This document shows positions 2,192 through 7,412 of a stretch of DNA of 7,412 bases, piece by piece; position 1 is the first letter of the stretch, and each line of letters begins with the position of its first letter. The stretch comes from Nitrospinota bacterium. GTDB lineage: Bacteria; Tectomicrobia; Entotheonellia; J063. The notes under the pieces were generated by a model. The model saw only the letters and a program-made list of their open reading frames with translations, ran no database searches and was not told the DNA's origin. Both the position numbers and the translations under genes were made by a program. The DNA is taken from the NCBI GenBank assembly GCA_003696125.1, contig RFHZ01000318.1, positions 1 to 7,412 of the forward strand. The letters are read 5' to 3'.

Positions 2192-3004
2192 TTATGACCC
2201 CTTTCTCTTCCATCCTGCACTGAGGAAGTTTCCCAGTCTGCTCAGTAAACTGGTTTGATCTTGAAAGCTCGGGAGGGGAACATCTTCGCCGAGCAAACGC
2301 CGGGCAATGCGACGAAATGCCGCTCCCGCCGCATAGGTATTGTTGAGGGCAATCGGAACGCCTCGATTGCTTGAAACGATGATCCCTTCATCCTCCGGAA
2401 TAATCCCCAGAAGCGGAATGCCTAAGATATCGATGATGTCTTCCCGATCGAGCATGTCCCCTCGCTGTACCATGGCCGCAGAGAGTCGATTGATGATGAG
2501 CTGCGGCTCGTTGGCCGACGCCTGGAGGAGCCCGATCACCCGATCAGCATCCCGGATGGCCGACACCTCAGGGGTGGTGACCAGAATGGCTTCGTCGGCA
2601 CCGGCCACGGCATTGCGAAACCCTTGCTCTATCCCGGCCGGAGAATCGAAGAGGATAAAGTCAAACTCCTTTTTCAACTCGGTACTGACCTGCTGCATCT
2701 GCTCAGGGGTCACGGCGGTCTTGTCATCGGTCTGCGACGCGGGCAGGAGAAAGAGGTTTTCGATGCGCTTGTCCTTGATCAAAGCCTGGCGAAGCCGACA
2801 GCGACCTTTTATCGCATCAACCAGGTTGTAGACGATCCGGTTTTCTAGTCCCATCACCACATCCAGATTGCGCAAACCGATATCCGCATCTACAACCACG
2901 ACTCGCTTTCCACTTTGCGCAAGCGCGACCCCGAGATTCGCCGTGGTGGTGGTTTTGCCCACTCCCCCTTTCCCTGAGGTAATAACAATGGCTCTCCCAT
3001 CCAT
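2192..3004 (-). CDS. minD: MinD, septum site-determining ATPase
   Basis: A membrane-cycling ParA/MinD-family ATPase that recruits MinC to the inner membrane and is released by MinE. It has 270 residues, the usual family length. The deviant Walker A motif is GKGGVGKTT at residues 11-19, with the signature lysine K12 and catalytic K17. VVVVDADIGLRNLD (35-48) is the Walker A'/switch I region. FDSPAGIEQGF (from about 119, with D120) is switch II. The C-terminal 20 residues (SLLSRLGNFLSAGWKRKG) form an amphipathic membrane-targeting helix. The ATG is preceded by GGAGAAGGA at good spacing. It lies 31 bases after minC and one base before minE, consistent with a single minCDE transcript. Confidence 0.98.
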   Translation of the reverse strand: MDGRAIVITSGKGGVGKTTTTANLGVALAQSGKRVVVVDADIGLRNLDVVMGLENRIVYNLVDAIKGRCRLRQALIKDKRIENLFLLPASQTDDKTAVTPEQMQQVSTELKKEFDFILFDSPAGIEQGFRNAVAGADEAILVTTPEVSAIRDADRVIGLLQASANEPQLIINRLSAAMVQRGDMLDREDIIDILGIPLLGIIPEDEGIIVSSNRGVPIALNNTYAAGAAFRRIARRLLGEDVPLPSFQDQTSLLSRLGNFLSAGWKRKGS

Positions 3005-5293: not shown

Positions 5294-6643
5294 ATGCGTA
5301 CTCTCCCAATAGAACTCCGTGAGCAGGCTATTACCAGACGGCAGTTTCTTAAGACGACTGGATTCACGACCGGTTTGGTGGTCTCTGGGCTCGGGTTGGA
5401 GGGGATCATAGCGAGTAAACAGGCTCCCGTCTATGCCCAGGAGCGCGCCATTCACTTCCTGCTTTGGAAGAATTTCTCTCCTCCAGCGGATAGAGAGATT
5501 ATCCGGCAGGGAGAGGAGTGGGGAAAGGCCAACCGGGTCAAGGTGCGCATTGAACAGATCAACGCCAACGATATCCCGGGTCGAGCCAGCGCGGCTGTGG
5601 AGAGCCAGACCGGACCAGATATCATCCAGTTCTTCCACAACTGGCAGGTCCAGTATGCGGACTCCCTGGTCGATGTGACCGATATCTGTGTCGATCTGGA
5701 GTCGAAATATGGTGGGTATCTCGATTATGCCAAAGAGCATGCGATGTACAAAGGTCGATTCACTGCCGTACCCCATACCATTGTGCCCAATATCTACGTA
5801 GCGCGAAAATCGTACCTCAAAGAGGCGGGTACCGAAGCCTGGCCAGCCACCTGGGATGATCTCCGTCGTGAAGGGAGGAAGTGGAAAGAGCGGGGGCATC
5901 CGATCGGTCAGACCGTGGGTCACACCTTTGGCGATGCGGTCAATTTTACTTACTCGTATTTTGCGAGTTACGGTTCCAAGGAACGGCATCCGGATGGGCG
6001 AGTCGCGTTCAACAGCAAGGAAACGCTGGAGGCGCTTAAGGCCTTTAAGCCGATGTGGGACGATGCCTTTGATCCGGCTGGCCCAGGATGGGACGACTCC
6101 AATAACAACCGAGCCTTCCTCTCCGGAGCCATTGCCGCCACCCAGAATGCCCCAAGCATCTATCTGAAAGCTTCGAACGAGCTACTGTTAGATACAAAGG
6201 GAGAACCACTGGTGCTCGATATCGCTCATTATCCTGATCCGGCTGGCCCGGCAGGCGTCTTCCACTACCACTACACGCAACAGTTGGGGATTATGAAGTA
6301 CTCCAAAAATATCGATATCTGCCGTGAGTTCCTCATCTGGCTTTTAGACAAGGAGCAGTATGCCCGCTATCTGCGACGTGGACAGGCGTATCAATCTTCA
6401 CCGTTGCGCGCCTATTTGGAAGATCCGATGTGGGAGATGTTCCCCGCCCTTAAGCCGTATCGAGACTGGTTGCCCAAAGGTCTACGAGTCGGACTCGATG
6501 GACCGGCAGATGAGAAAGCAGCCCGCGTGGTTCAAAACTACGTGCTGATCGATGTGCTGGCAAATGTGGCTACGGGAAAGATGAGTCCAGAAGAGGCGAT
6601 GCTCTGGGGGGAGAAGAGGTTGAAGGAGTTCTATGAAGCCTGA
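5294..6643 (+). CDS. Tat-exported ABC transporter solute-binding protein (family 1, sugar type)
   Basis: It captures a solute in the periplasm and delivers it to a membrane ABC importer. It has 449 residues, normal for family 1 sugar-type binding proteins. The N-terminus is a twin-arginine signal: TRRQFLK (residues 14-20, R15 R16) precedes a hydrophobic stretch, with likely cleavage after VYA (48). There is no lipobox cysteine, so the mature protein should be soluble. The mature part has the family look: an early FLLWKNFSPPADREI strand-helix, then VESQTGPDIIQF, WPATWDDLRREGRKW (typical ligand-lobe motif) and DKEQYARYLRRGQAYQSSPLR near the C-terminal lobe. The ATG follows a strong AGGAGGTG site (5281-5288) at five bases. 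It lies 42 bases ahead of the permease gene, clearly an operon. The ligand cannot be read from sequence; sugars, polyols or glycerol phosphate are all possible. Confidence 0.9.
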   Translation: MRTLPIELREQAITRRQFLKTTGFTTGLVVSGLGLEGIIASKQAPVYAQERAIHFLLWKNFSPPADREIIRQGEEWGKANRVKVRIEQINANDIPGRASAAVESQTGPDIIQFFHNWQVQYADSLVDVTDICVDLESKYGGYLDYAKEHAMYKGRFTAVPHTIVPNIYVARKSYLKEAGTEAWPATWDDLRREGRKWKERGHPIGQTVGHTFGDAVNFTYSYFASYGSKERHPDGRVAFNSKETLEALKAFKPMWDDAFDPAGPGWDDSNNNRAFLSGAIAATQNAPSIYLKASNELLLDTKGEPLVLDIAHYPDPAGPAGVFHYHYTQQLGIMKYSKNIDICREFLIWLLDKEQYARYLRRGQAYQSSPLRAYLEDPMWEMFPALKPYRDWLPKGLRVGLDGPADEKAARVVQNYVLIDVLANVATGKMSPEEAMLWGEKRLKEFYEA

Positions 6644-6685: not shown

Positions 6686-7412
6686 ATGAAACCATCGGAG
6701 AAGACTCGCCTCCGGACTCTGCTGGACTACGTCGAACGAGAACATGTGCTCGGGTACCTGATGCTCCTCCCGGCCGGAATCGTGATCCTCTTCTTCATCG
6801 CCTATCCATTTGGGTGGGGGGTCTATCTCAGCTTCACGAACAAAACGATCGGGATGCCGTGGTCTGAGGTCTCCTTTGTTCGTCTGAAAAACTATATCAA
6901 CCTGTGGACAAGGGATGGGATCTTTTGGCAGACAGTCTCCAACACCTTTCTCTATACGGGCGTGGCGACGGTGATCAAATGGTCACTCGGCATCACACTG
7001 GCAATCCTGCTCAATCGGGAATTCAAATTCAAGCGTTTGATTCGGGCTGCGGTACTCCCCTGGATTGTACCCACCGTGTTAAGTACGCTGGCCTATCTCT
7101 GGATCTTTGACCCGGATTTCAGCATCGTCAACTGGACCTTCCGGCAGGTGTACTACACAACCCCTGTGTACCTCTCCCTCTTTTCCGCCGCTGTGGATCT
7201 GGTGGGTCTGGGGATCGTGCTGGCCATTCTGCTCCACTATACCCGACGGCTGGACTCTTTGCTTCTCGATCTCCTGGTACTGGCCGCCTTGCTTGCCCTC
7301 CTGCTCGCTTTTGCCTCCCGACACGACTTCTGGTTGAGTCTCTTCACCGTGCTCGGGGTCTTGCTTACCTTTCGCCTCACCCGCTCCCATCGACTCTTGA
7401 CCCTGGGGGTAC
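6686..7412 (+). CDS. ABC transporter permease, MalF/UgpA type, with extra hydrophobic insert (partial)
   Basis: An inner-membrane permease of a sugar-type ABC importer, partner of the binding protein upstream. It is open to the window edge, so only 242 residues are seen and the C-terminus with the EAA loop is missing. The ATG has GGGGAGGGG just upstream; an in-frame ATG at 6659 is less well supported. Residues 22-141 match the family: helix 1 (LGYLMLLPAGIVILFFIAYPF, then SFTN), helix 2 around 86-109, then a basic cytoplasmic loop, and helix 3 (RAAVLPWIVPTVLSTLAYLWIF) ending in DPDFSIVN. Family members then have a short outer loop and helix 4 (often FFAI...LAGLQ). Instead residues 161-183, 192-210 and 216-229 are three further hydrophobic stretches, and no EAA motif appears by the window end. 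The other reading frames show no normal continuation, so a simple frameshift is unlikely. Confidence 0.9.
   Translation, partial: MKPSEKTRLRTLLDYVEREHVLGYLMLLPAGIVILFFIAYPFGWGVYLSFTNKTIGMPWSEVSFVRLKNYINLWTRDGIFWQTVSNTFLYTGVATVIKWSLGITLAILLNREFKFKRLIRAAVLPWIVPTVLSTLAYLWIFDPDFSIVNWTFRQVYYTTPVYLSLFSAAVDLVGLGIVLAILLHYTRRLDSLLLDLLVLAALLALLLAFASRHDFWLSLFTVLGVLLTFRLTRSHRLLTLGV

Follow-up and report, generated by a model that had tools for sequence, protein, structure and literature searches.

The window analysed here, i.e., the whole stretch of 7,412 nucleotides, ends inside a gene for a MalF-type permease, and the P3 loop of that permease is probably (we put the probability at about 0.6) interrupted by a genuine membrane insert, a reading that is favoured over a chimeric contig end or a decaying gene. 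It is supported by the insert itself, which is in frame, adapted to the codon usage of the genome and hydrophobic, and by the abrupt end of homology to three orthologues that share the operon. The strongest support comes by analogy from a paralogue that this genome encodes on contig C959, in which a predicted two-helix insert occupies the same site and is flanked by permease sequence on both sides. Against this reading stand the contig end, which falls inside the insert, the lack of any second genome with the insert among those searched, the failure of the insert to align with that of C959, the low confidence of the AlphaFold model in the insert and the loss of one residue from core helix 3.

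Genomic context and the permease gene

The window comprises contig C641 in full, one of 990 contigs in an assembly of 4.18 Mb (7.98% contamination), hence the permease can be read only into the insert, and helices 4–6 with the EAA loop would lie beyond the contig end. The source bacterium is kin of sponge symbionts; among the genomes searched, Candidatus Entotheonella and a Candidatus Tectomicrobia genome stand closest to it within its class. The features of the window are as follows:

minus strand: genes for tRNA-Leu, RNase Z-like protein, minE, minD, minC and a glycerophosphodiester phosphodiesterase-like protein (names from sequences)
5294–6643, plus strand: sugar-type extracellular solute-binding protein, 449 aa, in the same operon as the permease, with a twin-arginine-like signal
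6689–7411, plus strand: permease of the MalF/UgpA type (CUT1), truncated by the end of the contig after 241 readable aa
6740–6832, plus strand: core helix 1, aa 18–48 (AlphaFold2 helix, hydropathy), aligned with MalF TM3 in the profile alignment
6917–7015, plus strand: core helix 2, aa 77–109 (hydropathy, AlphaFold2, profile alignment)
7031–7105, plus strand: core helix 3, aa 115–139 (AlphaFold2, alignments)
7106–7153, plus strand: last part of helix 3 plus the conserved beginning of the P3 loop, FDPDFSIVNWTFRQVY, where similarity to all relatives stops
7154–7411, plus strand: hydrophobic insert, aa 156–241, incomplete (at least 86 residues), with no counterpart in 137 related permeases
7166–7243, plus strand: insert helix a, aa 160–185, predicted out-to-in (hydropathy, AlphaFold2; orientation from the YTRR that follows the helix)
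7256–7312, plus strand: insert helix b, aa 190–208, predicted in-to-out (hydropathy, AlphaFold2)
7331–7384, plus strand: insert helix c, aa 215–232, weaker, predicted out-to-in (hydropathy, AlphaFold2)

The tRNA-Leu (CAA) lies at the contig start (13–97, minus strand), and the open reading frames listed over it are probably spurious. MinD fragments are also present on two other contigs of the assembly (C186 and C652), with 77% and 85% identity to window 2192–3004, which makes it probable that the assembly includes sequence from one or more related organisms.

The binding protein matches Pfam families SBP_bac_1 (E 6e-25) and SBP_bac_8 (E 7e-22), has a weak model score for the twin-arginine signal and is 69–71% identical to the binding protein that adjoins the orthologous permease in three genomes. 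The permease frame is open from the ATG at 6689 to the last complete codon, and residues 3–156 share 65–67% identity with three full-length permeases (L095, L192, and L193). Together with a match to SugA among PDB structures (E 3.6e-12), this bears out the preliminary description of the gene as encoding a MalF/UgpA-type subunit, and homology over core helices 1–3 places it in the CUT1 family. Core helix 3 departs from the family in one respect: in a segment of conserved length, RxxxVLLPW (window 7031–7069), one residue is missing and the sequence reads RAAVLPW, a loss shared by no other properly aligned complete permease in a set of about 130, which hints at relaxed constraint.

The insertion site

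All local alignments to the three orthologues stop at residue 155, and the similarity of the closest relatives ends at residues 155–156. The orthologues continue with an ordinary loop of 32 residues (NWTLRQFY-VWMGWGYVKGPLWLGDP). A loop of 20–50 aa at this place was found in essentially all of the 137 related permeases (a few partial alignments give shorter values), the sole longer one being that of C959, with 100 aa; the expectation that ordinary relatives have a short loop here thus proved right. The second longest loop of the survey, enlarged to 50 aa and non-hydrophobic, belongs to a MalF-type paralogue on contig C196.

When a profile of 36 relatives was aligned to E. coli MalF, with loops placed according to the published MalF topology (PMC2246101), the insertion site fell at about residues 350–360 of MalF, i.e., in the P3 loop between TM5 and TM6. 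The large soluble P2 loop (about 102–260 of MalF) falls after core helix 1 in the same profile, and therefore the earlier comparison, in which the P2 loop was placed at the insertion site, was wrong in position. The window gene does not belong with the P2-type permeases, which have a large soluble insertion at TM3–TM4, since its insert is hydrophobic and located at TM5–TM6.

Properties of the insert

The three hydrophobic stretches noticed earlier in the open frame are confirmed by hydropathy where they had been placed, with Kyte–Doolittle maxima (19-residue window) of 2.50 (aa 164–182), 2.86 (aa 191–209) and a weaker 1.44 (aa 213–231). AlphaFold2 predicts helices at 160–185, 190–208, and 215–232 with low confidence (pLDDT about 33–58); helix c is followed by TRSHR and by the start of a possible helix d, from residue 234. 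The frame follows the codon preference of the genome (mean log score +0.26, against negative scores in each of the five other frames), its GC3 is 0.73 vs. 0.72 in the rest of the permease gene, and T occupies 49% of second codon positions, as in membrane genes. An equally hydrophobic open frame arose in 0 of 20,000 composition-preserving shuffles of the insert, which, with the codon preference and the second-position T, argues that its hydrophobicity is not due to chance. The earlier claim that core helix 3 is followed by a hydrophobic insert in the same frame is supported.

The C-terminal half of the family was resumed in no other forward frame and nowhere on the reverse strand, so the insert does not result from a frameshift. 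An antisense gene at 7079–7390 was considered and rejected; it has a negative codon score and represents the hydrophilic frame that commonly lies opposite a membrane gene. No direct or inverted repeats were found at the insert within the window.

Relatives of the insert, which would have counted as support in the preliminary description, were found neither in its own genome nor in the phylum, in 386 further genomes or in IMG/VR; matches at E 0.002–1 were scattered over unrelated membrane proteins. Nothing in Pfam or NCBIfam exceeded the threshold. Assignment of the insert to GT-C or O-antigen-ligase-like proteins, suggested by eye, was rejected, the hits being below threshold (WsfD, E 0.063; DUF6064, E 0.009; Wzy_C, E 4.2). 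A structure search with the model of the permease returned weak matches to SugA and MalF on top (E 0.005–0.03) and no match for the insert.

A paralogue with a complete insert in the same loop

Within the assembly, contig C959 begins inside another MalF-type permease. There, NWVLRWLWQM precedes a stretch of about 62 additional residues that contains two hydrophobic helices (nt 180–370 of that contig), and then comes GLVLKENWGYFKGPLWLGDP. This insert is complete, lies in the same loop as that of the window and agrees, with its two helices, with the even number put forward in the preliminary description; after it the permease proceeds with normal helices 4–6 and an EAA-type loop with LAGLQTVPPDLYYAGDIDGA. 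An assembly join is very unlikely here, given that the reading frame continues across both ends of the insert. At this place the closest orthologues from Entotheonella have no more than a few residues (EISVF). In our view the C959 permease is a better documented case of an insert than the window itself. Within this genome, the protein most similar to the binding protein of the window (a paralogue, 39%) is likewise encoded in the C959 operon. Ahead of the insert, the contig shows poor conservation and an in-frame TGA in its first 50 nt (within nt 1–60), which is either an error of the contig edge or a sign of decay.

By sequence similarity, the C959 insert and the C-terminal membrane hairpin found in GT2 polyprenyl-phosphate glycosyltransferases are homologous: against seven proteins the insert reaches 33–43% identity over 55–58 aa (z 11–18, E values down to 5e-8). 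The Pfam domain Glycos_transf_2 is present in both of the matches that were scanned, and a representative of the matching proteins resembles the structures of DPMS, ArnC, and GtrB. In GtrB the hairpin enters the membrane from the cytoplasm and forms part of a tetrameric bundle of membrane helices (PMC4728340); an insert in the P3 loop would need to begin outside, so the hairpin would be inverted in C959. One apparent match across the C959 insert, a permease from Treponema saccharophilum, turned out to be an ordinary permease of 295 aa.

For the insert of the window there is no detectable relation to the GtrB/ArnC/DPMS-type hairpin, in contrast to that of C959. Scores against the hairpins stay in the range of shuffled sequences for six of the seven proteins (best z 2.0), and a GtrB-type source was rejected; a common origin with the C959 insert was likewise rejected (no alignment signal, z −0.16). 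Since they cannot be aligned, the two inserts are independent or too diverged to tell.

Likely continuation of the operon

Neither the rest of the window permease nor an overlap with the contig end was found on any contig of the assembly. Contigs C685 and C959 both start inside permeases and were considered as the missing half; both overlap core helix 3 and represent different genes. Contig C893 starts inside a MalG gene with an open frame from about residue 43 as far as the stop; the product is 74% identical to the MalG of the orthologue, and a lipoprotein gene follows in the order seen at L095. The base composition of C893 fits that of the window. The MalG gene, the syntenic lipoprotein gene and the matching composition argue that the window operon continues on C893, which would give the permease the operon context of a CUT1 system, with a binding protein and a MalG-type partner; the link between the two contigs consists of synteny and composition, with zero overlapping bases. 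As estimated from the coordinates of L095, the gap between them should hold the rest of the insert and roughly 600 nt (at least about 600 nt).

Proposed topology and alternative explanations

The gene encodes a MalF-type subunit, part of a CUT1 sugar importer whose binding protein is also encoded in the window and whose MalG and lipoprotein genes would be those on C893. On the outer side, between core helices 3 and 4, the P3 loop would be interrupted by at least three and probably four membrane helices that are specific to the lineage. With the N-terminus inside, core helix 3 would exit outside; helix a would then lead inside, leaving YTRR there, helix b outside, with RHDF on that face, and helix c inside again, next to TRSHR. 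The chain must return outside before core helix 4, hence an even number of helices is needed, and by the positive-inside rule the basic YTRR and TRSHR fit the inside positions that such a number requires. A fourth insert helix would presumably lead out before core helix 4, followed by normal helices 4–6 and the EAA loop. The extra helices would most likely form a lateral bundle in the lipid beside the core and leave the sugar path and the ATPase contact unchanged; their role may be accessory, in stabilising the complex or in docking to a partner or to lipid.

The insert could instead be an artefact of assembly, in which the last about 260 nt were joined from another membrane-protein gene of the mixed sample onto a permease with a true loop of 32 aa. 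Its position within 260 nt of the contig end, with no second junction, would fit such a join, as would the three orthologues without the insert and an assembly as fragmented and contaminated as this one, with extra MinD sequences on two contigs. We nevertheless regard it as less likely, because a random join preserves strand and frame in about one of six cases and must also strike a membrane-protein gene, the insert agrees with the remainder of the gene in codon usage and GC3, its sequence occurs on no other contig, and the C959 paralogue, likewise from this assembly, carries an insert at that loop with permease on both flanks.

A truncated gene, broken by a real chromosomal insertion or rearrangement and giving no functional protein, would account for the shortening of core helix 3 in a segment of conserved length, and the in-frame TGA of the C959 paralogue points in the same direction, though it lies at a contig edge. 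Such decay appears less likely still, given that the frame stays open and codon-adapted through the insert, the binding protein is of full length and as similar to its orthologues as stated above, and the MalG gene on C893 is open to its stop. A genuine membrane insert thus remains the favoured reading.

Comparison with known permeases and significance

The window gene resembles the CUT1 permeases SugA (7cad/8ja7), MalF (2r6g), and AlgM1 (4tqu) in core helices 1–3 and in an operon with a binding protein and MalG; it differs in the P3 loop, which is short in these proteins and is interrupted here by mostly hydrophobic residues. In the literature consulted, variation in the size of CUT1 permeases is ascribed to soluble loop domains or to two extra helices (MalF has eight instead of six). 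Like the window gene, E. coli MalF is enlarged in an outer loop (PMC2246101), but its P2 loop of about 180 aa is soluble and follows core helix 1, whereas the insert of the window is predicted to span the membrane and follows core helix 3. Lineage-specific insertion into a loop of a CUT1 permease is also known from MalG1 and MalG2 of Thermotogales, where the insert, in contrast to the present one, comprises roughly 500 aa of hydrophilic sequence and is placed between the first and second helices (PMC2246101). A limited search of the open-access literature revealed no precedent for membrane inserts in CUT1 permeases.

If the inserts are genuine, membrane hairpins were spliced into the middle of the permease core on the side of the binding protein, which would mean that the six-helix core tolerates whole membrane modules, and such places would be natural fusion sites for engineering. 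It is conceivable, as a tentative extension, that the P3 loop of MalF-type permeases in the Entotheonella-related lineage repeatedly accepts unrelated membrane-helix modules (the GT2-type hairpin of C959, the three- to four-helix module of the window), which would make standard sugar importers into larger membrane assemblies, docking to lipid-linked sugar enzymes or to further partners. The C959 permease in particular would be a visible case of a transmembrane hairpin common to glycosyltransferase and transporter families.
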